Of a stretch of 45,070 bases of DNA, positions 5,784 to 22,989 are shown one piece after another (positions within the stretch are counted from its first letter, which is position 1; each line of letters begins with the position of its first letter). The stretch is from Gammaproteobacteria bacterium (lineage in GTDB: Bacteria; Pseudomonadota; Gammaproteobacteria; Chromatiales; Chromatiaceae), in contig JASJBU010000005.1 in NCBI GenBank assembly GCA_030066355.1, positions 1-45,070 on the forward strand, given 5' to 3'. The notes below the pieces were generated by a model. The model was not told where the DNA came from. It did no database searches and saw nothing but the letters and a program-made list of their open reading frames with translations. The translations under genes and the position numbers were made by a program.

Positions 5784-7631
5784 TTAAACCTGTGAGAGGT
5801 CCCGCACGGCCCCCTGTGCAGCGCTGGTGGTAAGCGCCGCATAGGCCTGCAAAGCCTTGGAAACCACCCGGTCCCGGCCGATCGGGCTCCAGGCATCGGC
5901 TCCCTTGGCAGCCATTGCCGCTCGTCGCTGTGTCAACTCAGTATCGGACAGGGCAACGGCGATGCGCCGCTCCGGGATATCGATCTCAATGAGATCCCCC
6001 TCTTCCACCAGCCCGATATTACCGCCCTCGGCCGCCTCCGGTGAGCAGTGACCGATTGAGAGGCCCGAAGTGCCGCCGGAGAAGCGACCGTCGGTGATCA
6101 AGGCACAGGCCTTACCCAGTCCTTTCGATTTCAGATAACTGGTGGGATAGAGCATCTCCTGCATACCAGGTCCCCCCTTGGGACCTTCATAGCGAATGAG
6201 CACCACATCACCAGCCTTGATCCGGTCACTCAGAATCGCCTCCACCGCCGCCTCCTGGCTCTCGAAGATCCGCGCCGGGCCGGAAAACTTGAGGATCGAC
6301 GCATCGACACCGGCCGTTTTGACGATACAACCCTGTTCGGCCAGATTACCATAGAGCACCGCCAGACCACCGTCCTTCGAATAGGCATGCGCGATATCTC
6401 GGATACAGCCGTTGGCACGATCCTGATCGAGTTCCGGCCAGCTGCTGCTCTGACTGAAGGCAACCTGAGTCGGGATGCCTCCAGGCCCGGCGATATAACG
6501 GGTCCGCGCAGTCTGCTCCTCGCTGCGGATGACATCCCAGCGATCCAGCGAGTCGCCCATGCTGGCGGTATGCACGGTCGGCACCTCACGGTGGATCAAC
6601 CCGCCACGGTCGAGCTCGGCGAGTATGCCGATCACCCCGCCGGCCCGATGCACATCCTCCATATGGTATTGCTGGGTTGCCGGCGCCACCTTGCACAGGT
6701 TGGGGACTTTGCGGCTTAGCCGGTCGATATCGGCCATGCTGAATTCGACCTCGGCCTCATGGGCCGCGGCAAGCAGATGCAGCACGGTATTGGTCGAACC
6801 GCCCATGGCAATGTCCAGGCTCATGGCGTTCTCGAAGGCCTGGAAATTGGCGATAGAACGGGGCAACACGGCAATATCGTCCTGATCGTAATAACGTTTC
6901 GCCAATTCCACCACCAGCCGCCCCGCCTCCAGAAACAGCTCCTTGCGTTCGGCGTGGGTGGCTAACAGGGACCCGTTGCCCGGCAGGCTGAGACCCAGGG
7001 CCTCGGTCAGGCAGTTCATGGAGTTGGCGGTGAACATGCCGGAACAGGAGCCGCAGGTGGGACAGGCGGAGCGCTCGATGGCCGCCACGTCCTCATCGCT
7101 CTCATCCGGATTGGCGGCGGAGACCATCGCGTCCACCAGATCGAGCTTGACCTCACCCTTGGAGGCGAGCTTCACCTTACCGGCCTCCATCGGCCCGCCG
7201 GAGACGAACACCGTCGGAATATTCAGGCGGAGGGCCGCCATCAGCATCCCGGGGGTGATCTTGTCGCAGTTGGAGATGCACACCAAGGCATCTGCACAGT
7301 GAGCGTTGACCATGTACTCCACGGAGTCGGCAATGATGTCCCGCGACGGCAGGGAGTAGAGCATACCGCCGTGGCCCATCGCGATGCCGTCATCCACCGC
7401 GATGGTGTTGAACTCTTTGGCTACACCCCCCGCCCGCTCGATCTCCCGGGCGACCAGTTGGCCTAGGTCCTTCAAATGGACATGGCCGGGTACGAACTGG
7501 GTGAAGGAGTTGGCGATCGCAATGATCGGTTTCTCAAAGTCACTGTCCTGCATACCCGTAGCTCTCCAGAGGGCCCGGGCGCCTGCCATGTTACGACCAT
7601 GAGTCGTGGTGCGGGAACGGTATTGCGGCAT
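5784..7631 (-). CDS. ilvD: Dihydroxy-acid dehydratase
   Basis: IlvD dehydrates 2,3-dihydroxy-isovalerate and its methylvalerate homologue to the 2-oxo acids, the penultimate step of valine and isoleucine synthesis, using an iron-sulfur cluster. Cluster and active-site motifs are visible: [11 protein letters not shown] and [11 protein letters not shown], with the GRFSGGTSG segment near the C-terminus. I start at [10 protein letters not shown] (7631) rather than the ORF-track start 45 bases upstream. It has a ggag site six bases ahead, begins with the family's usual N-terminus, and gives 615 residues, the usual length. No other branched-chain genes are nearby, which is common for ilvD in gammaproteobacteria. 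Confidence 0.97.
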
Positions 7632-7749
7632 CACATACTCCGAGTGTTCAGAATAAAAAAGAAGCATTATGCCCACTTTTCAGACCACAACCAATCCTGG
7701 TTGATCTATTCCGAGGCCGCGGCAACCGAAGGGTTTTCGCCCCGAGGAT

Positions 7750-10395
7750 TCACTCGGGATGCGGCTCGCAGGGTAAGATCAGGCAAAACTTCGCGCCCAC
7801 CGGGGTCGAATCACAGAGCCTCACCCGACCATTGTGCTTTTCGGCCACGATCTTGACGAAGTTCAGGCCCAGACCAACCCCGGTGTGAGAGCGTTTCGAG
7901 TCCTGCTTGCCAAGGGTAAAGGGCTGAAAAATGCTTTCTTGCAGTGCATCGGGAACACCCGGCCCTTCATCGAGCACACAACATTCCAGTTGTTTACCCA
8001 TGTGCTGCAGGCTGATTATGATCCTGCCACCGTCAGGGGAGAAACGGATCGCATTGCCCAACAGGTTGAGCAGGGCCCGCTCCAGCAAGGCCAGATTGCC
8101 TTGCAGCCAGACTTCGTCCACTGCGAGTTCGGTCTCCAGCTTGATGCCCCGCAACTGGGCCTGGGCATAAACGTCACCGATCGCATCGTAAACGACCCCC
8201 ACGAAATCGAGATCAGTGAAGCTCGCCGCATCCGCCGCTTCCGCCCTGGCCAGCTGGAGGAAATCATCCGCCATCTTCAGGGAGCGACGCGCCAACGGCT
8301 GAATCTGCTCCGCCAATTGAGCGGCCGTGCCTTCATTGACCAGCCTGGACTGGGTCAGTGAGAGCAGCGAGGTGATGGGTGAGCGGATGTCATGGGAGAG
8401 AAAGTTGAGCATCCTGGCCCGGGTTCGCTCCGTCTGCTTGAGTGCTCCGATATCCGACAGGTTGATGATCATACCGAAGATCCCCGCACTCTCCTTCTCC
8501 AGCGGTTGGAGCTGCAGATAGAGTTCACGTTCCTCTGGTCCCTGTGCCTCGAAGCGGATCGGCTGGCCCTCCATGAACAGCCGCACCATGACCGACTCCC
8601 AGTCATGCTCTCCACTGATCTCCAAAGCCTGCAGCAAGGTGGAGGCCTCTCTTCCCACCAGCGCCGTTTCGTTCTCGAATCCCAGGTAACTGGCGGCCCG
8701 GGGGTTGGAGAGAATCACGCGCCCCAATGAATCGACCACCAGCAGACCATCATCCATCTGGCCCAGGGCCAAGGTGATGAAACGCCGCAACTGGGCAAGC
8801 CGCTCATTGGCCTGTTCCACCTGCAGGATGCGTCGCTCGAATTGTTCGAGGGTGCTGACTGATTCACCCTCCTCCGGACGATTGAACTGCGCCGCGAAAT
8901 CCTCCAGCAGCAACATGGCGCGCCCATCCGGTACCGCCGTGCGGGGCCAACGGATGCCCAGTTGCCTGACCACCCCCTGGGTTTCGATCTCCGTCCATAA
9001 TTCCGCACCATGCCTGGCCCATTGGCCCGGTATGAGCTCAGGGAAGGGTTGCTCCAGAGGCTCACCTGACTGGTCGAGCAGTTGGCTGTGGTTTTCATAC
9101 AGAGCCCAGCCCTGCACGGGCAGAATCTGTTGCAGAAATTGCAGCGCAGTGGGTAGATTCGCGGGTTGCTGGAAGACCGGCAACACCTGTTGCTCCTGGT
9201 GAAGTTTTTCCAGTTCCAGCCTGAGATAGGCAACACTCAACTCCAACCGGCGCCAGCTCCACAGCGGATAACTGATCAGCAAGCCAAGCAGGGCAACGGC
9301 CGGTGGAAACCAGATCCGAAAGCCGTGGATCCACAGAAGACTGACCGATAAGAGAATCATCGCCAGCGAAACCGTCACCACCGGGACCAGACGGGTGGGA
9401 AAAAAGGGATAGAGAAAAAAAGGTAACACCACTATCAGGCCGGTGAAGAGAAAATAGTTGTGCTGTTCGACCCGGGATATCGTCTCTTCGCTACGCAGTG
9501 CATCGAGGATGTTGGCGTTGATTTCCACTCCCGACATGGGTTGACCGTGTGCGGACACGGGGGTCGGTAAGACATCGCCCAGACCGGTGGCGGTCACACC
9601 GACCAACACGATACGCCCGTCGAAGGCATCCTCGAGAAACTCCCCCTTCAACACCTGAGAATAAGAGTAACGGGGATAATGCCCGGCAGGCCCGAAAAAG
9701 GGAATCAAGTGATAATCACTGCGGCTGATCGACTGGGTATTATTACTCAGAGGCACCGGGGGGTTCTTCAAGGGCCAGATAACGGGATCCAGCCAGTTCA
9801 GCAGACTGAGCATCATGTGTGGCCAGTAGGCCTGGCCCAGACCTTCATAGAGAAAGATGCCCCGGGCGATACCATCCGCATCCAGATCCATGTGCATATG
9901 TCCGAGACCGCTTGCTACCCTGGATAGCTCCGACATCGGCATCGTCTCGACCAGTTGGCCACCCAGCCGGTACTCTTCCATGATCACCGGAAAGAACACC
10001 CGCTCACTGGCCGCTACCGACTGAATCAACTGTCTGTCTCCCAGTGGATTGTGTAGATCCGCCTCGGCAAACAGAATATCCATGGCAATGGCCTTGGCAC
10101 CCGATTGCGACAAGATATCGATCAACTGGGCATGAATACCCCGAGGCCAGGGCCAGCGACCGAAATCCGCCAGACTCTGCTCATCCACCGCGACGATGAC
10201 GATGTCTTGCGCCGGCGGCTTGGACCAGAGGTCGATCTGCAGATCGTACAAGAGCTGATCCCAACGCCACAGCCAACCACTGGCTGCCAGCAAAAGAGCC
10301 AATAGCAACAGGGAAAACGCCGTGACGAGACGCTCGGTCAGGCCCAGGCTGAGATTGGTTTTTTTCACACTCACGCGGCTCGAGCTCAACGCCAC
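7750..10395 (-). CDS. CHASE2-domain sensor histidine kinase
   Basis: This is a membrane sensor kinase of 881 residues. A helix at about 25-45 leads into a CHASE2 extracellular sensor (about 45-300: DIVIVAVDEQSL, RWPWPR, FDGRIVLVGVTATGLGD). Three closely spaced helices follow (about 310-385), then a linker and a PAS-like domain (about 545-650). The kinase core has phospho-acceptor H668 in FLSHDIRSP, an N box (LLGNAIRFSP), a G1 box (DEGPGVP) and a G2 box (GVGLGLNFVK). It is the last gene of a minus-strand operon with a response regulator and a FecR/LysM protein, and its ATG overlaps the stop of the FecR gene by 10 bases. CHASE2 ligands are generally unknown. The neighbouring periplasmic protein is the obvious candidate partner. 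Confidence 0.95.
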   Translation of the reverse strand: MALSSSRVSVKKTNLSLGLTERLVTAFSLLLLALLLAASGWLWRWDQLLYDLQIDLWSKPPAQDIVIVAVDEQSLADFGRWPWPRGIHAQLIDILSQSGAKAIAMDILFAEADLHNPLGDRQLIQSVAASERVFFPVIMEEYRLGGQLVETMPMSELSRVASGLGHMHMDLDADGIARGIFLYEGLGQAYWPHMMLSLLNWLDPVIWPLKNPPVPLSNNTQSISRSDYHLIPFFGPAGHYPRYSYSQVLKGEFLEDAFDGRIVLVGVTATGLGDVLPTPVSAHGQPMSGVEINANILDALRSEETISRVEQHNYFLFTGLIVVLPFFLYPFFPTRLVPVVTVSLAMILLSVSLLWIHGFRIWFPPAVALLGLLISYPLWSWRRLELSVAYLRLELEKLHQEQQVLPVFQQPANLPTALQFLQQILPVQGWALYENHSQLLDQSGEPLEQPFPELIPGQWARHGAELWTEIETQGVVRQLGIRWPRTAVPDGRAMLLLEDFAAQFNRPEEGESVSTLEQFERRILQVEQANERLAQLRRFITLALGQMDDGLLVVDSLGRVILSNPRAASYLGFENETALVGREASTLLQALEISGEHDWESVMVRLFMEGQPIRFEAQGPEERELYLQLQPLEKESAGIFGMIINLSDIGALKQTERTRARMLNFLSHDIRSPITSLLSLTQSRLVNEGTAAQLAEQIQPLARRSLKMADDFLQLARAEAADAASFTDLDFVGVVYDAIGDVYAQAQLRGIKLETELAVDEVWLQGNLALLERALLNLLGNAIRFSPDGGRIIISLQHMGKQLECCVLDEGPGVPDALQESIFQPFTLGKQDSKRSHTGVGLGLNFVKIVAEKHNGRVRLCDSTPVGAKFCLILPCEPHPE

Positions 10396-13073
10396 GGCAG
10401 TTCGATACGATAGATACCCGAGTGGCTTTCAGTCGGCTCGGTCTCGAATAGCGCGTCAACCCGCACATAGAGACGTCCGTTCCAATAGAATGGTAATCGC
10501 CACTGGGTGGCCTGTCCGATATGCTCGAACAGAGGATTCTGAAAATGACTGTCCCTGGCGATCAACAGACGATATCCCCAGGCACCCTCGACCCGACTCC
10601 AGTGAAAATCCATCCAGCCAGGTCCGAACAGGGGCCTGCCTAGGACCGGTACCGCTCGCGACTTTCTGTTGACCGGTAACTCATACATACCTGTCACTCC
10701 CTCCCGTCCGTAGGAATCAAGGCCGCGTATCGATAGCTGGTAGATACCAGGTTGAAGATTCTCTAGGGTAAGAGCAGCACCCTTCGTGGAATAGACTTCA
10801 ACGTCACCTCCACCAACCAAACCGAGTCGGGTGATGTAGCTCACAGCACCTTCCAGGACAGGCCATTGTAAGCTTACCGACCCCGCTTCGGCGGTACTGG
10901 GGAGCTGTGACAGATCAGGTGCCTCCAAGCGAGGCGGCAGCATGTGTAGACTATGCGAGCCAGCCGCCCCCGTTCGGCCATGGGCGTCAATGCCACTCAC
11001 CGACAGCTGGTATTCAGCCGGAGCTAGGTTCTCCAATGTAAAGCTCGGATCTTGAGAGCGGTGTTGCTTTAAAACAGCATCCGTTTCGCCGGTTAGAGAC
11101 AATCTAATACTGTAACTGTCTGCCCCTTCCAGTGTGGGCCATTGCAGGGTCACCGGACCGGGTTCGACTGCCGCCGGCAGGGACGTCAGGTCGGGGGCAG
11201 CCAACCTCGGCGGGTAGACGCGCAGGGTGTGCGCGCCAGTCGCACCCTCCCGGTCGTATACGTCGATGGCGCGGACCCCAAGTTGGTATGCCCCGGACGG
11301 CATATCTTCCAGGGTATAGGCCGGGTCGTCTGTCTCGCCTTCCAAAATCTTATTGTCATTATCTCCTGCTTGGAGCCTGATTCGGTAGCTCACCGCGTTG
11401 TCCAGTGCGGGCCATTGCAGGGTCACCGGACCGGGTTCGACCGCCGCCGGCAGGGACGTCAGGTCGGGGGCAGGCAACCTCGGCGGGTAGACGCGCAGGG
11501 CGTGCGCGCCACTCGCACCCTTACGGTTGTAGGCGTCGATGGCACGGACCCCAAGTTGGTATGCCCCGGACGGGATATCTTCCAGGGTATAGGCCGGGTC
11601 CTCTGTCTCTCCTTCCAAAATCTTATTGTCATTATCTCCTGCTTGGAGCCTGATCCGGTAGCTCACCGCGTTGTCCAGTGCGGGCCATTGCAGGGTCACC
11701 GGACCGGGTTCGACTGCCGTCGGCAGGGACGTCAGGTCGGGGGCAGCCAACCTCGGCGGGTAGACGCGCAAGGTGTGCGCGCCACTCGCACCCTCCCGGT
11801 CGTAGGCGTCGATGGCGCGGACCCCAAGTTGGTATGCCCCGGACGGCATATCTTCCAGGGTATAGGCCGGGTCCTCTGTCTCGCCCTCCAGTATGACCGC
11901 ATCCGTCTCCCCCGCGGCATGGAGCCTGATTCGGTAGCTCACCGCGTTGTCCAGTGCGGGCCATTGCAGGGTCACCGGACCGGGTTCGACCGCCGTCGGC
12001 AGGGACGACAAATCAGGCTCAACCAGTAGAGGCCGCATGTTCACCCGGAGTTTGTGCCGGGCCGTCAGGCCTTCCAGTCCCAGCTCATCTATGCCTCGTA
12101 AAGTCAGTTGGTAATCACCCGGCTGTAGAATCTCCATTGTTTGAGAGGTCATGTCTGTCAGGAGATCATAAATCACCAAACCTCCTTGATCCGTCTCGAG
12201 CAGTTTGATTCTGTAGCTTTTTGCCTCTGCCAAGGGCGGCCAGTTAAATTCCACTGAACCAGAGTCAACTTCGCCAGGGAGCGCGGATAAGTCCGGGGCG
12301 GGAAGTAATTTAGTGGGGGCTGCCGGAGGCTTACCGGGTTCGATCAAGGTGCCGAATCCGGCCGTCACCGAGATCGTCTCTCCCTCGGCGGCTACCGCTA
12401 CACCTCCCTCTGTGACCTCGTTGCGAGTCAATCCGCTTGGCGCTTCCACACCGATACGGAAGTCGGTACCCCGCACCATGGTCACAGCGGCGGGGGTATG
12501 GATTTCATAACGGGAGGCTTCCCCTTGCAGGGGTTTGACCCGGCTCTCAACCCGGCCCCGCTTCACCCTGAGGCGGGTATCGATCATGCCCGTATCGCCA
12601 AAGGCCGACAGGGTATCAAGGGTAATCTCACTCTGCGCCCCCAACAGCAGGCGTGAGCCATCGGCAAATCTGATGGACACTACGGCATCAGGCCCGGTTA
12701 CAATCCTATCACCGATCTGCAGTCTATCACTGACCCCAGGCAAGATCGGTTCCTGGTTTGCCATCCGGTAGAGACTCACCTCACCACGTAAAAAAACAAT
12801 CTCGGCTGCGGCTGGAGACTGCAGCAGCCAATCCAGTGGTATGCGGATCTCAGTCCCGATTGGAATCTGCCGATCCTCTTCGATTTCATTGTGCGCCTGC
12901 AGTTGTGCGGGGGTGATTTCCGGTATGAGATAGCGCGCACTGATGGCTGATAAAGTCTCTCCGGGACGGATTCGATAAACCCAGTCTTCAGCCTGTGAGA
13001 AGACCGGCATGATCAATAGTGTCAGCAGGGCAAATACCTGAAGACGGAGATAACACTTAACTGTGCTAGGCAT
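10386..13073 (-). CDS. Exported LysM-FecR protein with seven FN3-like repeats
   Basis: The predicted product has 895 residues. A signal peptide is followed by a LysM domain (about 30-75, YRIRPGETLSAIS) that may bind peptidoglycan. Next comes a FecR-type domain (about 95-240, including RGEVSLY, ADGSRLLLG and MVRGTDFRIGV). From about residue 258 to the end there are seven consecutive units of about 90 residues resembling fibronectin type III folds, each with a core such as TLQWPALDNAVSYRIRL and YQLGVRAIDAY. Units 2-5 are very similar and the outer ones are diverged. I start at MPSTVKCYLR, because the longer ORF adds 30 residues ahead of a clear signal peptide and runs into the upstream gene. 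The gene lies between a response regulator and a CHASE2 kinase. I infer it is an envelope sensor or scaffold for that pair; its function is not known. Confidence 0.9.
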   Translation of the reverse strand: MPSTVKCYLRLQVFALLTLLIMPVFSQAEDWVYRIRPGETLSAISARYLIPEITPAQLQAHNEIEEDRQIPIGTEIRIPLDWLLQSPAAAEIVFLRGEVSLYRMANQEPILPGVSDRLQIGDRIVTGPDAVVSIRFADGSRLLLGAQSEITLDTLSAFGDTGMIDTRLRVKRGRVESRVKPLQGEASRYEIHTPAAVTMVRGTDFRIGVEAPSGLTRNEVTEGGVAVAAEGETISVTAGFGTLIEPGKPPAAPTKLLPAPDLSALPGEVDSGSVEFNWPPLAEAKSYRIKLLETDQGGLVIYDLLTDMTSQTMEILQPGDYQLTLRGIDELGLEGLTARHKLRVNMRPLLVEPDLSSLPTAVEPGPVTLQWPALDNAVSYRIRLHAAGETDAVILEGETEDPAYTLEDMPSGAYQLGVRAIDAYDREGASGAHTLRVYPPRLAAPDLTSLPTAVEPGPVTLQWPALDNAVSYRIRLQAGDNDNKILEGETEDPAYTLEDIPSGAYQLGVRAIDAYNRKGASGAHALRVYPPRLPAPDLTSLPAAVEPGPVTLQWPALDNAVSYRIRLQAGDNDNKILEGETDDPAYTLEDMPSGAYQLGVRAIDVYDREGATGAHTLRVYPPRLAAPDLTSLPAAVEPGPVTLQWPTLEGADSYSIRLSLTGETDAVLKQHRSQDPSFTLENLAPAEYQLSVSGIDAHGRTGAAGSHSLHMLPPRLEAPDLSQLPSTAEAGSVSLQWPVLEGAVSYITRLGLVGGGDVEVYSTKGAALTLENLQPGIYQLSIRGLDSYGREGVTGMYELPVNRKSRAVPVLGRPLFGPGWMDFHWSRVEGAWGYRLLIARDSHFQNPLFEHIGQATQWRLPFYWNGRLYVRVDALFETEPTESHSGIYRIELPWR
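11128..12010 (-). repeat. Near-identical tandem repeats of 273-276 bp in the FecR/FN3 gene
   Basis: The string tccagtg(c/t)gggccattgc recurs at 11128, 11401, 11674 and 11950, giving periods of 273, 273 and 276 bases. Much of each unit between these points is nearly identical. Each unit encodes one FN3-like repeat, and one copy carries an extra codon (HAAGETDAVIL against QAGDNDNKIL). The high DNA identity points to recent duplication or gene conversion, and makes the copy number prone to change or mis-assembly. Confidence 0.93.
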
Positions 13074-13102
13074 AATCCCAACCAGACGCAATGGCCCCCA
13101 GT

Positions 13103-13795
13103 CTAGAGATCGGGTAGTTGTTCCAGTCGGTAGCCTTGATGATAGACAGCCTTCAACCGCCAACCATTTTCTGGCACCAGGCCCAGTTTACGTCGAAGCC
13201 GGCTGATATGAGTATCCACCGTACGCGTCACCAGCTCCGGCCCGAATCCCCAGATCGTCTCGAGGAGATGATCCCGGGATAGCAGACGACCCACGTTACT
13301 CAGCAACATCCAGGCCAGTTGGAACTCTTTTTCCGTCGTTTCCACCAATTGGCCTGCCCAAAAAATCTGTTTTGTCTCTTTGTCCAGTCTAAACTCACTG
13401 ATTTCAAGGATATCCTTGCGCAGATTACGCCCTGCATGGCGTCTTGCAAGGGCCTTCACGCGGGCCAGGGTGACTTCTTTGGAAACCGGTTTAGCCAGAT
13501 AATCATCAGCCCCTTTTTCCAATGCCTCGACGATATCCGCTTCGCTATCCCGATGGGTGATAAAAAAAACCGGGGTATCCAACTCTAATTCGTTTCGGAT
13601 CCAGGTCAGCAATTCGATACCGGATGACTTCGGCAACTCCCAGTCCATGATCAGCAGATCGTAACTCTCCTGACGCAAGGTCTTTATAAATGAGTCCGAA
13701 TTATCGAATGCATGGCAGATATGATCGTCAGCTTCCAACCACTCTTTCAGCACACTCGATTGCACCAGGTCGTCTTCTAAACAGGCGATACGCAT
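13103..13795 (-). CDS. OmpR/PhoB-family response regulator
   Basis: This is a 230-residue two-component response regulator. The receiver domain (about 1-120) has the acidic pair EDD (7-9), the phosphorylated aspartate D51 (MDW), a switch threonine in FFITHR, and K in LAKPVS. The C-terminal winged helix domain (about 130-225) is of OmpR type (TRTVDTHISRLRRKLG, HQGYRLEQL). It is the first gene of the operon with the LysM-FecR protein (30 bases downstream) and the CHASE2 kinase, which is its likely cognate kinase. The gene is preceded by a terminator that isolates it from the OmpA gene. Target promoters are unknown. Confidence 0.95.
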   Translation of the reverse strand: MRIACLEDDLVQSSVLKEWLEADDHICHAFDNSDSFIKTLRQESYDLLIMDWELPKSSGIELLTWIRNELELDTPVFFITHRDSEADIVEALEKGADDYLAKPVSKEVTLARVKALARRHAGRNLRKDILEISEFRLDKETKQIFWAGQLVETTEKEFQLAWMLLSNVGRLLSRDHLLETIWGFGPELVTRTVDTHISRLRRKLGLVPENGWRLKAVYHQGYRLEQLPDL

Positions 13796-13835: not shown

Positions 13836-13872
13836 AAAAAGGCAGCGACACTGCAAGTGGTGTCGCTGCCAA
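13836..13872 (-). terminator. Strong intrinsic terminator after the OmpA gene
   Basis: An 11-bp perfect stem, GGCAGCGACAC with GTGTCGCTGCC, has an 8-base loop and is followed on the minus strand by TTTTTAT. It ends the OmpA-family transcript just before the response-regulator gene. An A/T run on the other side might let it act both ways, but no plus-strand gene runs into it. Confidence 0.9.
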
Positions 13873-13894: not shown

Positions 13895-14779
13895 TTACTT
13901 CACCTGAAGCTCAACCCGACGGTTGCTCGCTCTACCTTCCGAGGTACTGTTATCCGCAATCGGCTGAGATTCACCCATGCCCTTGGAAGAGAGAGAACCA
14001 CTCTCCACACCCTGGCTCACCAGATAGTCGGCCACCGCCTGGGCGCGTTTCTCGGAAAGGGTCTGGTTATATGCGGCAGATCCGGAAGAGTCAGTATGCC
14101 CGATGACCTGAATGCCGCTGATATCCGCTCGAGACTTAAGGGAGCTCGCCACTCCGTCCAGAATGACCATGGATTCAGTAGTGAGCTGGTTGCTGTTCAG
14201 CTCGAAATTGACATTCCTCAGGATGATCTGACTGGCGCATCCCTTTGTATCCACCTTTGCACCAGCCGGTGTGCCGGGACACTGATCCTTATAGTCGGCC
14301 ACTCCATCGCCGTCAGAATCCAGCGCACAACCATTGGCATCGACCTTGGCTCCGGCAGGGGTTCCAGGACACTTATCCTTGGCATCGACCACGCCATCAC
14401 CGTCACTGTCCAAAGCGCATCCATCCGCATCGACCTTGGTCCCTTTCGGGGTGCCCGGGCATTTGTCTTTGTCATCGGTGACACCGTCGCCATCGGAATC
14501 CAACGCACAACCATCGGCATCAACCTTGGTACCTTCAGGCGTGTCCGGACATTTGTCGCTGGGATCTGCCACTCCATCACCATCAGCATCACCAAAGCAG
14601 GTTGGATCTATCGGGAACCCGGGATCTCGATAACTGGTGGTCCAGCATTCTCCATACCCAGTACGAACCACACTGCCCGGATCCGTGCCTTCATGTAGAA
14701 AGCCCTTCTCTGCAACTGCAGGTGCAGCCAGCACCATGGGTACCATTACCATCGCAAGTTTCTTCAATTGAGTCTGCAT
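13895..14779 (-). CDS. OmpA-family outer membrane protein with thrombospondin type 3 repeats
   Basis: This is an exported protein of about 294 residues. After the signal peptide (MQTQLKKLAM...APAVA) there is a short region, then four calcium-binding thrombospondin type 3 repeats of about 29 residues (DSDGDGV..KDKCPGTP.G.KVDA.GC). A C-terminal OmpA peptidoglycan-binding domain follows (VNFELNSNQLT, VIGHTDSSG, SNRRVELQVK). I start at 14779: it has ggagg five bases upstream and begins a clean signal peptide, whereas the ORF-track start adds 13 unlikely residues. There is no transmembrane beta-barrel of classical OmpA length; the repeats probably act as a rigid spacer to the cell wall. It is single-gene by context, closed by a strong terminator. 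Confidence 0.93.
   Translation of the reverse strand: MQTQLKKLAMVMVPMVLAAPAVAEKGFLHEGTDPGSVVRTGYGECWTTSYRDPGFPIDPTCFGDADGDGVADPSDKCPDTPEGTKVDADGCALDSDGDGVTDDKDKCPGTPKGTKVDADGCALDSDGDGVVDAKDKCPGTPAGAKVDANGCALDSDGDGVADYKDQCPGTPAGAKVDTKGCASQIILRNVNFELNSNQLTTESMVILDGVASSLKSRADISGIQVIGHTDSSGSAAYNQTLSEKRAQAVADYLVSQGVESGSLSSKGMGESQPIADNSTSEGRASNRRVELQVK
14238..14596 (-). repeat. Four tandem repeats of about 87 bp (thrombospondin type 3)
   Basis: Four successive units of about 87 bases encode DxDGDGV-x-DxxDxCPxTPxGxKVDxxGC blocks in the OmpA-family gene. The units are clearly related but have diverged at many third positions, so they look older than the FN3 repeats of the neighbouring FecR gene. Confidence 0.88.
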
Positions 14780-14872
14780 TCCGACCTCCAGATTGATGTT
14801 TGCAAACAAAATCTTCATTTATCCGCCTCTCACCCATTCATTATGGGAGCACTGATTGACTATGCACCTTTG

Positions 14873-15691
14873 TTAAGCAGCATTTTCCTTAAATAGGTGA
14901 ATATCCTGTTGCGGATAGGGAATACTAACACCTTCTTTGTCAAAAACGGCCTTGATCGCTTCCATCAAATCGGCACGAGTCGCCCAATAATCTCCGGTTT
15001 TGACCCAGGGCCGCACCGCAAAATCAACACTGCTCGCCCCCAGCTCCAGGAGCATTACATTGGGTGTAGGATCTTTCAGCACGGTCTCATTCGCCTCGAG
15101 GACACCCTTAATCAGGTCACGGGCCTTTTTGATGTCATCGTCATAGCCGATACCGATCACTAGATCGATACGTCGGGTATCCCGTGCCGAGTAGTTGACA
15201 ATGGTTCCGCCGTAGATTTGCGCATTTGGCATGGTCACTTCACGATTGTCACCGGTCTTCAATACTGTGTGGAAGATCCGAATCTCTTCCACCACTCCGG
15301 CTGTTCCACCAGCTTCAACGAAATCTCCCAACTTGAATGGACGGAAGATAATCAGCATCACACCCGCTGCAAAACTGGATAGCGAATCTTTCAATGCAAG
15401 GCCGACAGCCAAGCCTGCAGCACCCAAAATGGCCAGTGCTGATGTCGTATTGACGCCGAGTTGTTCCAAAGCGGCGAGCACAACGACTGCCAGCAGCGCG
15501 GCATAGGCGATGTTGCCGAGAAAGCTGACCAGCATCTGATCGACCTTGCTCTTGGTCATCACCTTTTCCAGAGCTCTGGACAAGAGGCGAGCAAGCCACT
15601 TACCGACTATGAATACCAGCAGCGCCAAAATGATTTTGGTGCCCCATGGGATCAGATAGGTGTTTAGGATCGTATCAAGGGATAATTCCAT
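14873..15691 (-). CDS. mscS: Small-conductance mechanosensitive channel MscS
   Basis: MscS opens under membrane tension to release solutes during hypo-osmotic shock. The 272-residue length is close to the 286 of the E. coli protein. There are three membrane helices within the first ~125 residues, the third with the Gly/Ala-rich pore pattern GAAGLAVGLALKDSLSSFAAG. The beta domain follows (FKLGDFVE, TMPNAQIYGGTIVNYS), and then the alpha-beta C-terminal vestibule domain. It lies between an OmpA-type protein and a YeaQ-like small membrane protein on the same strand, a plausible envelope or osmotic stress grouping, though the genes may be transcribed separately. Confidence 0.95.
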   Translation of the reverse strand: MELSLDTILNTYLIPWGTKIILALLVFIVGKWLARLLSRALEKVMTKSKVDQMLVSFLGNIAYAALLAVVVLAALEQLGVNTTSALAILGAAGLAVGLALKDSLSSFAAGVMLIIFRPFKLGDFVEAGGTAGVVEEIRIFHTVLKTGDNREVTMPNAQIYGGTIVNYSARDTRRIDLVIGIGYDDDIKKARDLIKGVLEANETVLKDPTPNVMLLELGASSVDFAVRPWVKTGDYWATRADLMEAIKAVFDKEGVSIPYPQQDIHLFKENAA

Positions 15692-17756: not shown

Positions 17757-18956
17757 ATGACTCAACCAGCCATACTGGGCCCGCTCAACAATCTATACGA
17801 GATGCAGGCCCAGCTCCTGGAATCCGTTACGGACACGGATGCCTCGCGGCAATATCATGCAAAACTCGGCTCACTCAACTGGTACTACGGCACCGGGGTT
17901 TTTCTCGAGCTCTATTGGTTGCGAGAAGTGCTCGCTGGTGATGATGACCTGTCTGCACGGGTTAAGCACCTGTTCCAACCCGGTGCGCTTTCTCTGGCAG
18001 ACCAATGCAGTCAACTCCCCCCCAAAGATCATCTCTTAAACTGGGGAGCCGAGATTCGCGAGGAAAACCTTCTTAGATTGGCCAACCCCGGTCAGCTGCC
18101 GGACCATGAGCTGCTCAGGGCGGATCGCCTCCAATGGTTTCTTCTTCAGGAACAGGCGAAAATTTATGAAACTATGCTGCTTACCCTCAATCAGCGTAGC
18201 CTGCAGACTGACCGGCGTGACTACCAAGTAGAGAAACCACTGGTGCCCAGCCCTCCCGGTTGGGAGATCAAGGAACTCTCCCAGGGACACTATCGCATCG
18301 GCGCCCGCAATCAACCGGCGGCCTATGACAATGAATTACCACCACAGGCGGTACAACTCAGTAGTTTTCGCATCGCCCTGTCACCGGTCTCGAACAGCCA
18401 GTTTCTGGCATTCATGGAGGCTGGTGGCTATACAAATCCAGGTCTCTGGACCACAGAGGGACGTACCTGGCAGCAAGAACAGGATAAAAACCACCCGGAG
18501 TATTGGAGGCAGGACTCAACCGGTTACTGGTATGTCCTCGGTATCAACGGTCCAGTCGACCTGTCACCGGATGAACCTGTCTGTGGAATTAATCAGTACG
18601 AAGCCCAGGCCTATGCCGCCTGGGTCAACGCATTGGGAGACGAATTCGTCGGGGCGATCTTGCAACACGAATATCAATGGGAGGTTGCAGCCCGTAGCGG
18701 TGTCTTCAAGGATCTGGGCAGGGCCTGGGAGTGGTGTAGCAATAGCTTCCATGCCTACCCGGAATTTACTCCATTCCCGGATGAGCAGGTTTCTGCCATC
18801 CACTTCAATGGTGAGAATTCTGTATTGCGGGGAGGCAGCCTACACACTCAGCGCGTGTTGCGACGCCCCAGTTTGCGACACTGGGCTCAGGCACCAGACA
18901 GACTGCAACTCAGCGGGTTACGCTTGGTCTTTCCCCCGAAACACCAGTGGATTTAA
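17757..18956 (+). CDS. EgtB/SUMF1-family protein lacking the iron-binding histidines
   Basis: A 399-residue two-domain protein: an N-terminal DinB-like helical domain (about 1-165) and a C-terminal formylglycine-generating-enzyme-type domain (about 190-395). The second domain closely follows the EgtB pattern (GRAWEWCSNSFHAYPEF, NSVLRGGSL, RRPSLRHW, LSGLRLV). EgtB is the iron-dependent sulfoxide synthase of ergothioneine synthesis. The DinB histidines that normally hold the iron are missing: WHLGH of EgtB corresponds to WYYGT here, and HEQQHQE to QEQAKIYE. An ordinary EgtB reaction is therefore unlikely, and the role is unknown. No egtD methyltransferase is nearby. Confidence 0.8.
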   Translation: MTQPAILGPLNNLYEMQAQLLESVTDTDASRQYHAKLGSLNWYYGTGVFLELYWLREVLAGDDDLSARVKHLFQPGALSLADQCSQLPPKDHLLNWGAEIREENLLRLANPGQLPDHELLRADRLQWFLLQEQAKIYETMLLTLNQRSLQTDRRDYQVEKPLVPSPPGWEIKELSQGHYRIGARNQPAAYDNELPPQAVQLSSFRIALSPVSNSQFLAFMEAGGYTNPGLWTTEGRTWQQEQDKNHPEYWRQDSTGYWYVLGINGPVDLSPDEPVCGINQYEAQAYAAWVNALGDEFVGAILQHEYQWEVAARSGVFKDLGRAWEWCSNSFHAYPEFTPFPDEQVSAIHFNGENSVLRGGSLHTQRVLRRPSLRHWAQAPDRLQLSGLRLVFPPKHQWI

Positions 18957-20649: not shown

Positions 20650-22989
20650 TCACACAGTCACTGAGGACGGATCCGTTTTTTTCAAGGCGGTCAACATGGC
20701 GTCCAAGGCACGATCCATGATTGGTGCTGCCGGCAACTCGACCACTTTTACCGTTCCCTCCCTCAGTCTGTTGGCCAGCCCTTGTAGGGTCAATTCCAGG
20801 CACTTCATTCCCTTGCGGTTCACGAAGATGTAGATATTCGACATGTTGCTCTTCCAGGAAAGCTTAACCCGAGACTTGTTCACTCCATCATCAATCTCGA
20901 GCCAATCACCAACCTCCAGGCTTTCAGCCTGTTGGGTGAATTCATCCTGCTCAGCCACTTCCGGCTCGGTCAATTCCTCGGTAAGCAATGACGAGCTCCC
21001 GGACATGAGTTGGCTGTCAGGAAAACTGATCTGTACGGATTTTGCCGGGGCAGTCCCCGGCCCCTTTGCAGTATTGGCATCACCACCCCTGAGGCAACCA
21101 ATGTGGCAGTTTTGCAACTCCTTGAACAGGCGTGCCATCTTGTGTTGGTCAAAAGAAATGCTATTGAGCCGCTCGCGCAGGTTTCGCAGCAATTCAGGGA
21201 TATTTCTCAGAAGCTCCTGGCGTTCGGAATACTCGATTTTGGGTTGAACGCTCCATAACAAACGGTCGACGATGGCCAATGAATCAGACCACTCATCACT
21301 TTCCGGCCCCTGGCGCAGATAGTTGAGCAAGAGTACATCCTTCCACCCATCCTCGAGCAGTTCCATCACGGCCTCAGGCACGACTTCCAGTTTTTTCAAT
21401 CGACTGTTGAGTGCCTCAGATACAATCTGTTTGGCGCTGCGCAGCTGCTCTTTGCCTCTGGTGACCTGGTTGGTCCTCTGCTCTGCGACTTCCGCACCGC
21501 GCTGCTCCTGCTCCCACCAATCGGAAAATTCTTCATCGAGTTCAGCAAACAGCTGTGGATCATCATGAAAATCATTCATGATGCGCTTGATGACGGATTC
21601 TATCTTTTGGTAGAGAGTGTCGCTCTCCCGATCACTACTCTCATTCCAACCCACAGCCGCTTGCGCCAGGTTGTTCAACAAGCGGCGGGCGGGATGGAGC
21701 TTCTTGCTGAAGAAGCTCTTATCGATGATAGCAACCTTGAGCATGGGTATCTGCAAGCGACTGAGCAGAGCCTTCATGGCATCAGGCAGGCTGAAGTCTT
21801 CCAGAATGAATTCGAAGAGCATGGTAATGACATCAATCGTGTCATTATCCGCATCTCCCAAACTCCGACTCACCTCCCCGCTTTCTCTCTTTAGCAGATC
21901 ATCGGCCAGTTGTGCCTTGAGCACCTTGGGATTAAGAGTCTGCCCATCAGCCTGCGGCAAGATCAGTACGTTAGACTGCTGAAGAGCCGACAGTGCTCCC
22001 AGTAACTCACCGGTGTCAACCGCAGGGAGTGGTAAACCAGATGCCCCGGTCGTTATCAGACTCGAGGCCAGCAGACTGTCGCTCATGGTTGCGCGCCGCA
22101 GACCGAGCAGCTGCTGCAGGGTGGCAAACACCTCTCCCTGCATCCTGTCCGTACCACTCGCTGTTTCATCCCTCCTATGAGTGTTATCGGCTGTCAGTTG
22201 AGTTTCTGGCTGAGCCGTCTCCCTACCTGTACTGCCACGCTCCACAGCGGGTGCGACCGGGTTGCGCCTGACCCTCGGAGTTAAATTGGGTATGATGCCG
22301 GCCTTCCCCAACAGCAGATTGACTTCATCGTAAAGACCGCCCAGAAAATGGATAAAATGCTTCTCGAAGATCTTGTAAACGATCAGCTTGACCGGAAGTT
22401 CGACAGGAATGTCATTCATCGCGGTTTGAAAAGCGTTACATACCACAGCGGGTTCCAGAGGATTCAGCTCATGGACAGCCTGCTGTTGATTGCCTCCCTG
22501 CAGCAGATAAGTGAAGCGCTGACTCATAGCGTAGCATTCCTTCGAGTAGCGGTTCTCAGCCTTGGAGATCATGTTAGTGATCGCCAAAGAATCCTCCAGC
22601 TCCTCATTGTCGAGCAACGCCATTTCTGATTCATGATTGAGTTGATCCAGAGTTCGTTGAACGATCAACACTTCTCCGGTTTGCCAATAATGATCATAGA
22701 CCCGCAGGAGTTGATCCAGAAACTCGCGATCGATTTGTACCCGTTCTTTGCGCAATACGCGCATTGCATCAAAAAATGAGGTTTGCAGCGTATTGCTGTC
22801 AGATTTATCGGCCTTCTCATACAAGGTATCATCGAGTTGCTCGAATAACCCAGCCATCAGTTTGGGAATGGTTGAACCCAGGATCTTACGGCATTCAGCT
22901 ACGATCCTTTGCCCCTTCGCATCAAGCATAGTAGTGACTCGATGGGTAGCGCCACCGGAAAAGGAGATGATATTGTCTTGTCCTTTCAT
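20650..22989 (-). CDS. DUF1631-family protein
   Basis: This is a large, mostly helical cytoplasmic protein of 779 residues with the overall layout of the DUF1631 family. There is a long helical N-terminal region, a charged variable middle (about 245-300), and a conserved C-terminal small domain (VGDWLEIDDGVNKSRVKLSWKSN, IYIFVNRKGMKCLELT). The small domain looks like a beta-barrel similar to PilZ domains, but I do not see the usual PilZ RxxxR motif, so cyclic-di-GMP binding is unproven. Function is unknown. It leads a minus-strand group with FKBP and nadC. From memory, some gammaproteobacteria also carry a DUF1631 gene between nadC and ampD. Confidence 0.85.
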   Translation of the reverse strand: MKGQDNIISFSGGATHRVTTMLDAKGQRIVAECRKILGSTIPKLMAGLFEQLDDTLYEKADKSDSNTLQTSFFDAMRVLRKERVQIDREFLDQLLRVYDHYWQTGEVLIVQRTLDQLNHESEMALLDNEELEDSLAITNMISKAENRYSKECYAMSQRFTYLLQGGNQQQAVHELNPLEPAVVCNAFQTAMNDIPVELPVKLIVYKIFEKHFIHFLGGLYDEVNLLLGKAGIIPNLTPRVRRNPVAPAVERGSTGRETAQPETQLTADNTHRRDETASGTDRMQGEVFATLQQLLGLRRATMSDSLLASSLITTGASGLPLPAVDTGELLGALSALQQSNVLILPQADGQTLNPKVLKAQLADDLLKRESGEVSRSLGDADNDTIDVITMLFEFILEDFSLPDAMKALLSRLQIPMLKVAIIDKSFFSKKLHPARRLLNNLAQAAVGWNESSDRESDTLYQKIESVIKRIMNDFHDDPQLFAELDEEFSDWWEQEQRGAEVAEQRTNQVTRGKEQLRSAKQIVSEALNSRLKKLEVVPEAVMELLEDGWKDVLLLNYLRQGPESDEWSDSLAIVDRLLWSVQPKIEYSERQELLRNIPELLRNLRERLNSISFDQHKMARLFKELQNCHIGCLRGGDANTAKGPGTAPAKSVQISFPDSQLMSGSSSLLTEELTEPEVAEQDEFTQQAESLEVGDWLEIDDGVNKSRVKLSWKSNMSNIYIFVNRKGMKCLELTLQGLANRLREGTVKVVELPAAPIMDRALDAMLTALKKTDPSSVTV

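Follow-up and report, generated by a model that had tools for sequence, protein, structure and literature searches.

A BiofilmReg-type locus with an expanded repeat protein and the genomic linkage of FecR and CHASE2 proteins across signalling outputs

Genes and proteins of the locus

The window analysed in this study, a stretch of 45,070 nucleotides from a gammaproteobacterium of the family Chromatiaceae (assembly GCA_030066355.1, contig JASJBU010000005.1, positions 1 to 45,070), contains on its minus strand three consecutive genes whose products were assigned with Pfam as a response regulator of the OmpR/PhoB type, an exported protein combining LysM, FecR and fibronectin type III (FN3) domains and a sensor histidine kinase with the arrangement CHASE2-PAS-HisKA-HATPase. 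Genes, domains and coordinates had been proposed in a first-pass annotation of the sequence and are all confirmed. The trio is not an undescribed system, as the architecture is that of the BiofilmReg operon (PMC5192318). The locus is a member of this known type that carries an expanded FN3 array. What is new is the observation that the pair formed by a FecR helper and a CHASE2 sensor recurs in many bacteria in combination with different outputs.

The regulator (13103-13795, 230 amino acids) belongs to the OmpR/PhoB/CreB type with a receiver (REC) domain and a winged helix (Response_reg, 5e-24; Trans_reg_C, 6e-22). It contains both the phospho-acceptor Asp51 and Lys102, and its NCBIfam assignment is PhoB/CreB-like with scores under the equivalog cut-offs. 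In the kinase (7750-10395, 881 amino acids), a CHASE2 domain assigned as extracytoplasmic sensor (residues 30-309, 9469-10308; PF05226, 4e-52) is followed by PAS, HisKA and HATPase_c (1e-20), and the motifs SHDIRSP, NAIRFS, DEGPGV and GVGLGL of the catalytic core (HisKA and HATPase_c, 7765-8421) are intact. An AF2 model of the CHASE2 domain was obtained with high confidence, with a predicted local distance difference test score (pLDDT) of 92.5 and a predicted template modelling score (pTM) of 0.88. No solved structure resembling the domain was found by sequence and a fold search with this model gave no match with E < 0.1; the CHASE2 fold may be structurally uncharacterised. At two related loci (L096 and L067), the CHASE2 and kinase portions reside in two open reading frames (575 and 322 amino acids, and 488 and 430 amino acids, respectively), which reflects either a frameshift, a sequencing error or a real split.

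The longest open reading frame of the middle gene (10386-13163) begins with a TTG at 13163 and would from there run into the regulator gene. The ATG at 13073 is the likely start, as it yields a signal peptide and leaves a gap of about 29 bp after the stop of the regulator, and the resulting gene (10386-13073) is conserved in relatives. The probable signal peptide, as judged by reading of the sequence, is MPSTVKCYLRLQVFALLTLLIMPVFSQA (12987-13073). It is succeeded by a LysM domain (12837-12977; PF01476, 1.5e-9, residues 63-109 of the longest frame) and a FecR domain (12399-12710; PF04773, 5e-15, residues 152-255 of the same frame), which was also recovered in a whole-genome search. The overlap of middle and kinase genes noted in the first-pass annotation is confirmed and amounts to 10 bp if the kinase starts with the GTG at 10395, or to 4 bp (TTGA) if it starts with the TTG at 10389. 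In the model of a close relative, the FecR domain matches the FecR-family anti-sigma factor 4m0n (1.5e-7, root mean square deviation 3.0 over 133 columns) and the FN3 fold has fibronectin type III as its best match (5e-10). The FecR region (12399-12812) also shows weak matches to the antifreeze-adhesin entry 5ix9 (0.011 with the single sequence, 1e-5 with a profile) and to the LapA retention module of NCBIfam (0.006).

The remainder of the middle protein (10389-12296) consists of FN3/Ig_J-like repeats, as assigned with Pfam and by comparison of the units. Of the seven repeats initially claimed, six are clear units of about 92 residues and the seventh, at the C-terminus, is divergent. Within the array, a near-identical tandem DNA repeat with a period of 273 bp, 3.2 copies and a match of 92% was detected by TRF (11128-12007), and the DNA of units 2-4 shows 89-95% identity at this same period. 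Since relatives with the same operon encode middle proteins of about 440-620 amino acids with only one to three FN3 units, compared to 925 amino acids in the window, the array is a recent tandem expansion; how many copies it contains exactly is subject to the quality of the assembly. The conserved core is thus LysM-FecR-FN3, and the weight that the first-pass annotation had given to the repeat array is not borne out. A different variable feature concerns the C-terminus: in most pairs with GGDEF-type proteins and in several of the kinase type, a hydrophobic helix closes the FecR partner, in some cases together with a basic tail (as in L134 and L046). This helix, which is missing from the FecR partners of the clade of the window, suggests an inner-membrane anchor. 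A tether to either the peptidoglycan or the membrane would hold the FecR domain close to CHASE2.

Linkage of FecR and CHASE2 genes

Conservation was investigated in a set of kinase loci picked by similarity to the CHASE2 domain of the window kinase, which describes this branch rather than all CHASE2 kinases, and gene order was counted at loci with enough sequence upstream, 55 of them of the kinase type and 29 encoding CHASE2-GGDEF-EAL proteins. The order of regulator, LysM-FecR protein and CHASE2 kinase is found in 44 of the 55 kinase loci, and a FecR gene is adjacent in 47. Among relatives with a name, the nearest belong to Candidatus Thiodiazotropha, the tubeworm endosymbionts and Sedimenticola, and the nearest clade keeps the wider order of MscS, OmpA, response regulator, LysM-FecR protein, CHASE2 histidine kinase, ilvD-like and CRP genes.

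The adjacency of FecR to CHASE2 is far above chance for kinase, GGDEF-EAL and adenylate cyclase outputs alike. A FecR gene adjoins all 29 of the CHASE2-GGDEF-EAL loci and is located within 4.5 kb at 13 of 22 CHASE2 cyclase loci. In the genome of the window, whose assembly is 82% complete, three CHASE2 and three FecR proteins were detected, all of which are paired and which serve three different outputs. Besides the kinase and its LysM-FecR-FN3 protein, these include a LysM-FecR-FN3 protein preceding a CHASE2-GGDEF-EAL protein (L007, contig C32, 3744-7898) and a FecR-TPR-beta-barrel protein of 1143 amino acids with a CHASE2 adenylate cyclase, resembling NsrA and CyaK (L008, contig C277, 1174-7687). 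Across 57 genera of the same family, FecR is found within 6 kb of 35 of the 52 CHASE2 domains, and 37 of the 49 FecR domains are near CHASE2; as a control in these genomes, compared by eye, a FecR domain lies within 6 kb of 1 among the 150 dCache_1 domains listed. At the level of the phylum, at least 30 among the 150 listed CHASE2 domains adjoin a listed FecR domain, compared to 0.65 expected. The two domains also appear to be inherited together, as reflected in the correlation of FecR and CHASE2 distances across loci (Mantel r = 0.88, 0 of 2000 permutations). For 67 of 69 FecR proteins the nearest neighbour shares the type of output; shared ancestry contributes to these patterns. The FecR protein of the window matches the kinase partner of another genus at 57% compared to 39% for the GGDEF-type partner of its own genome.

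Several arrangements were observed alongside. The FecR partner of L007 ends in a hydrophobic helix and its gene is separated by 3 bp, in the same frame, from that of the CHASE2-GGDEF-EAL protein; in three other such pairs (L064, L166 and L167) the stop of the first gene runs straight into the start codon of the second. At L008, a small cyclic-nucleotide-binding-like protein is encoded between the FecR-TPR-beta-barrel protein and the cyclase. A separate FecR family of about 740-816 amino acids is found away from CHASE2 (L092, 5903-8245, with similar matches in G011, G018, G022 and G048), at L092 with a REC-kinase and a REC protein downstream, and in the GGDEF-type branch an orphan LysM-FecR gene (L091, 6309-8641) is followed by what looks like a gene for a sigma factor of the extracytoplasmic function (ECF) group, and not by a CHASE2 gene.

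With respect to its surroundings, the trio is set apart by a strong intrinsic-terminator-like hairpin, usable on both strands (13841-13870), which is located between the regulator and the upstream gene for an OmpA/TSP3 protein. This gene and that of an MscS channel (13895-15691) share the strand of the trio and are conserved beside it in Thiodiazotropha and the tubeworm symbionts; both are possible regulatory targets. Downstream of the kinase, the sequence reads as an ilvD-like gene (5784-7676), and a DUF4136 gene, the fourth member of some related operons, is not found at this position. A sigma-70 scan at the trio gave scores no better than those of shuffled sequences and an Rfam search of the whole window no match. 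Elsewhere, the window encodes a formylglycine-generating-enzyme-like protein with an FGE-sulfatase domain (17757-18956) and a DUF1631 protein (20650-22989).

Proposed mechanism and alternative explanations

Based on the observed gene content and order, their conservation and the linkage of FecR to CHASE2 across outputs, we consider it probable that the locus encodes a three-gene envelope-sensing system of the BiofilmReg type, with the LysM-FecR protein as co-sensor of the CHASE2 kinase. The middle protein would be exported and held on the peptidoglycan by its LysM domain, from where the FecR domain, lengthened by FN3 units, could serve as periplasmic co-sensor by acting on the ectodomain (CHASE2) of the kinase in the inner membrane. 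The signal would then travel via the membrane helices and the PAS domain of the kinase, which would autophosphorylate and transfer the phosphate to the OmpR/PhoB-type regulator. Transcription would change in turn, with envelope or biofilm genes as the most likely targets. In this scheme, the direct contact between FecR and CHASE2 is inferred, as are the signal, the target genes and the direction in which they are regulated. The pair itself could serve as a portable input module that is also used by GGDEF-EAL proteins and adenylate cyclases, of which the own genome harbours one locus each, and as a genomic association this module is well supported.

Several observations weigh against this assignment. 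Linkage and co-inheritance indicate a shared function rather than contact. A joint model was obtained for a relative with both genes in the same frame (L098), where stops were replaced by Gly and 15 paired rows were used; the domains of this artificial read-through chain were predicted confidently (pLDDT 90.3), and the pTM of 0.57 does not indicate a confident interface. With pLDDT and pTM as the only values reported, the model speaks neither for nor against contact. A conserved element upstream of the regulator gene was looked for and none was visible, no target gene of the regulator was identified, and the phenotype of the related Burkholderia operon described below comes from one polar insertion in a single distant strain. 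Finally, an intact FecR gene is missing at 8 of the 55 kinase loci in close relatives. Kinases that lack the gene are Sedimenticola-type and related (L116, L117, L118, L120, L121, L122, L124 and L146). For the three-part sensor of the first-pass annotation, which would be contradicted by frequent FecR-less kinases in close relatives or by models that show no periplasmic interface, the outcome is mixed, and its reading is partly supported by the conserved order and the FecR-CHASE2 linkage. The FecR-less kinases retain 76 of the 80 CHASE2 columns that are conserved in their FecR-bearing counterparts, so that CHASE2 can be maintained without an adjacent FecR protein; of all observations, this one speaks most strongly against FecR being obligate.

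In the tree, the FecR-less kinases nest within the FecR-bearing clade, which argues for later loss or truncation rather than an original state, and the sequences suggest that FecR was probably lost secondarily in two or three events. A decayed FecR gene at these loci was rejected as an explanation since no remnant was found near them; only L099 retains a C-terminal fragment with the last 95 amino acids of the middle gene. With just 4 of 80 conserved columns differing, a loss of constraint on CHASE2 was likewise discarded. The orphan LysM-FecR genes of two genomes (G003 and G011) are poor candidates for partners in trans, since they are nearest to GGDEF-type rather than kinase-type partners.

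The retained columns would also be expected if CHASE2 senses a small ligand alone and the LysM-FecR protein takes no part in signal detection, being instead a piece of the envelope that is co-expressed or that the regulator controls, and the confident prediction of CHASE2 as an independent domain and the joint model are both compatible with this explanation. We nevertheless regard it as unlikely, since FecR partners are also found beside CHASE2-GGDEF-EAL and CHASE2-cyclase proteins where no regulator gene adjoins, a linkage that co-regulated output leaves unexplained. Moreover, genetic evidence from Sinorhizobium meliloti places a requirement for NsrA upstream of the CHASE2 cyclases (PMC7529298). 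The same requirement of the partner for activation speaks against a middle protein that, akin to CpxP, acts as inhibitor or tether by fixing CHASE2 in one state and letting go upon disturbance of the peptidoglycan or envelope. A bridge between cell wall and inner membrane could be formed where LysM is combined with the C-terminal hydrophobic helix, as in L134, L046 and most GGDEF-type partners, and the cell could do without an inhibitor, as might be the case for the FecR-less kinases. However, this helix is missing in the own clade of the window, and such a role seems to us slightly less likely still.

By far the least probable is a classical FecR protein, as part of a cascade of TonB receptor and ECF sigma factor that by chance is encoded beside a two-component system. 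The window protein shares FecR domain and fold with FecR/FecI/FecA cell-surface signalling, as reflected in the resemblance of the relative's model to an anti-sigma factor, but it is fully exported, with an N-terminal signal peptide in place of the cytoplasmic anti-sigma segment. No ECF sigma factor or TonB-dependent receptor is adjacent, the neighbours being the response regulator, the CHASE2 kinase and the OmpA-like and MscS proteins, and the conserved linkage to CHASE2 would not be expected.

Extending the co-sensor assignment beyond this locus, we tentatively propose, with some doubt, that FecR and CHASE2 may form a general and interchangeable receptor-transducer couple, where FecR proteins anchored in the peptidoglycan (by LysM), the inner membrane (by a C-terminal helix) or the outer membrane (by a TPR-barrel) would pass envelope or surface signals to CHASE2, with a kinase, a cyclic di-GMP enzyme or a cyclic AMP (cAMP) cyclase as output. 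If a FecR protein were the usual partner of CHASE2, a sensor domain that is widespread and extracytoplasmic, CHASE2 would gain a common activating partner, the coupling from the outside to kinase, cyclic di-GMP and cAMP signalling in many Proteobacteria would become directly testable and BiofilmReg, NsrA-CyaK and the Campylobacterota clusters would merge into a single mechanism. By itself, the window locus contributes a gammaproteobacterial member and a variant with expanded repeats.

Relation to known systems

The closest described counterpart is the BiofilmReg operon of Burkholderia contaminans, which comprises genes for a response regulator, a LysM/FecR protein, a CHASE2 histidine kinase and a DUF4136 protein (Voronina 2016, PMC5192318). 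Insertion into the regulator gene abolished biofilm formation, and transcription of all four genes was judged to be lost. The same study lists homologues from Burkholderia, Achromobacter, Bordetella, Ralstonia and further bacteria, calls the signals of CHASE2 unknown and already proposes sensing by the LysM/FecR protein and the kinase, with relay of the signals to the regulator. The DUF4136 gene is present in Burkholderia and absent from Achromobacter, Bordetella and Ralstonia, and is therefore not essential to the type. We found homologues on a Paraburkholderia replicon (L176), where DUF4136 is also present, and on the megaplasmid of the laboratory strain Cupriavidus metallidurans CH34 (L175, NC_007974.2, about 744.5-749.4 kb), to which the window proteins show identities of 43-45% for the regulator, about 28-30% for the middle protein and 30-37% for segments of the kinase, and all three proteins are thus homologous to beta-proteobacterial members. 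The window shares with BiofilmReg the order of an OmpR-family regulator, an exported LysM and FecR protein and a CHASE2-PAS-HisKA-HATPase kinase, the placement of the middle gene between the other two, the domains of all three proteins and the tight or overlapping junctions. It differs by the ilvD-like gene in place of DUF4136 and by its six or seven FN3 units. The middle protein of Ralstonia DTP0602 is similarly repeat-bearing, with tail-protein-like repeats (COG4733; PMC5192318, Table 2). In Pseudomonas aeruginosa PA4035-PA4036, a FecR protein is also encoded directly beside a CHASE2 kinase, although its LysM is described as truncated and the pair as lacking a regulator (PMC5192318). In open-licence literature beyond PMC5192318, we found no account of BCAL1443-1445, of the function of PA4035/PA4036 or of both domain names together.

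Grouping of CHASE2 and FecR genes extends to systems with cAMP as output. In Campylobacterota, CHASE2 adenylate cyclases are clustered with a FecR outer-membrane protein (PMC9239204); unlike in the window, these clusters contain extra phosphodiesterase and TPR genes and no two-component regulator. In magnetotactic bacteria, mtxA precedes a CHASE2 cyclase gene (PMC4439547). For S. meliloti, two reports describe NsrA as an outer-membrane protein that is required for signalling by the CHASE2 cyclases CyaK, CyaD1 and CyaD2, with its barrel placed at residues 600-1200 (PMC7529298, PMC13001267). On pSymB, a gene encoding a FecR-TPR protein of 1219 amino acids overlaps a CHASE2 cyclase gene, and from its length and the position of the barrel this gene would correspond to nsrA, so that NsrA appears to fit the FecR-CHASE2 pattern. 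Common to NsrA-CyaK and the window is thus an exported partner for a CHASE2 membrane protein, in S. meliloti a TPR-beta-barrel protein of the outer membrane with cAMP as output, in the window a LysM-FecR-FN3 protein with a histidine kinase. The adenylate cyclase output, which is not found at the window locus, is present in the same genome at L008.

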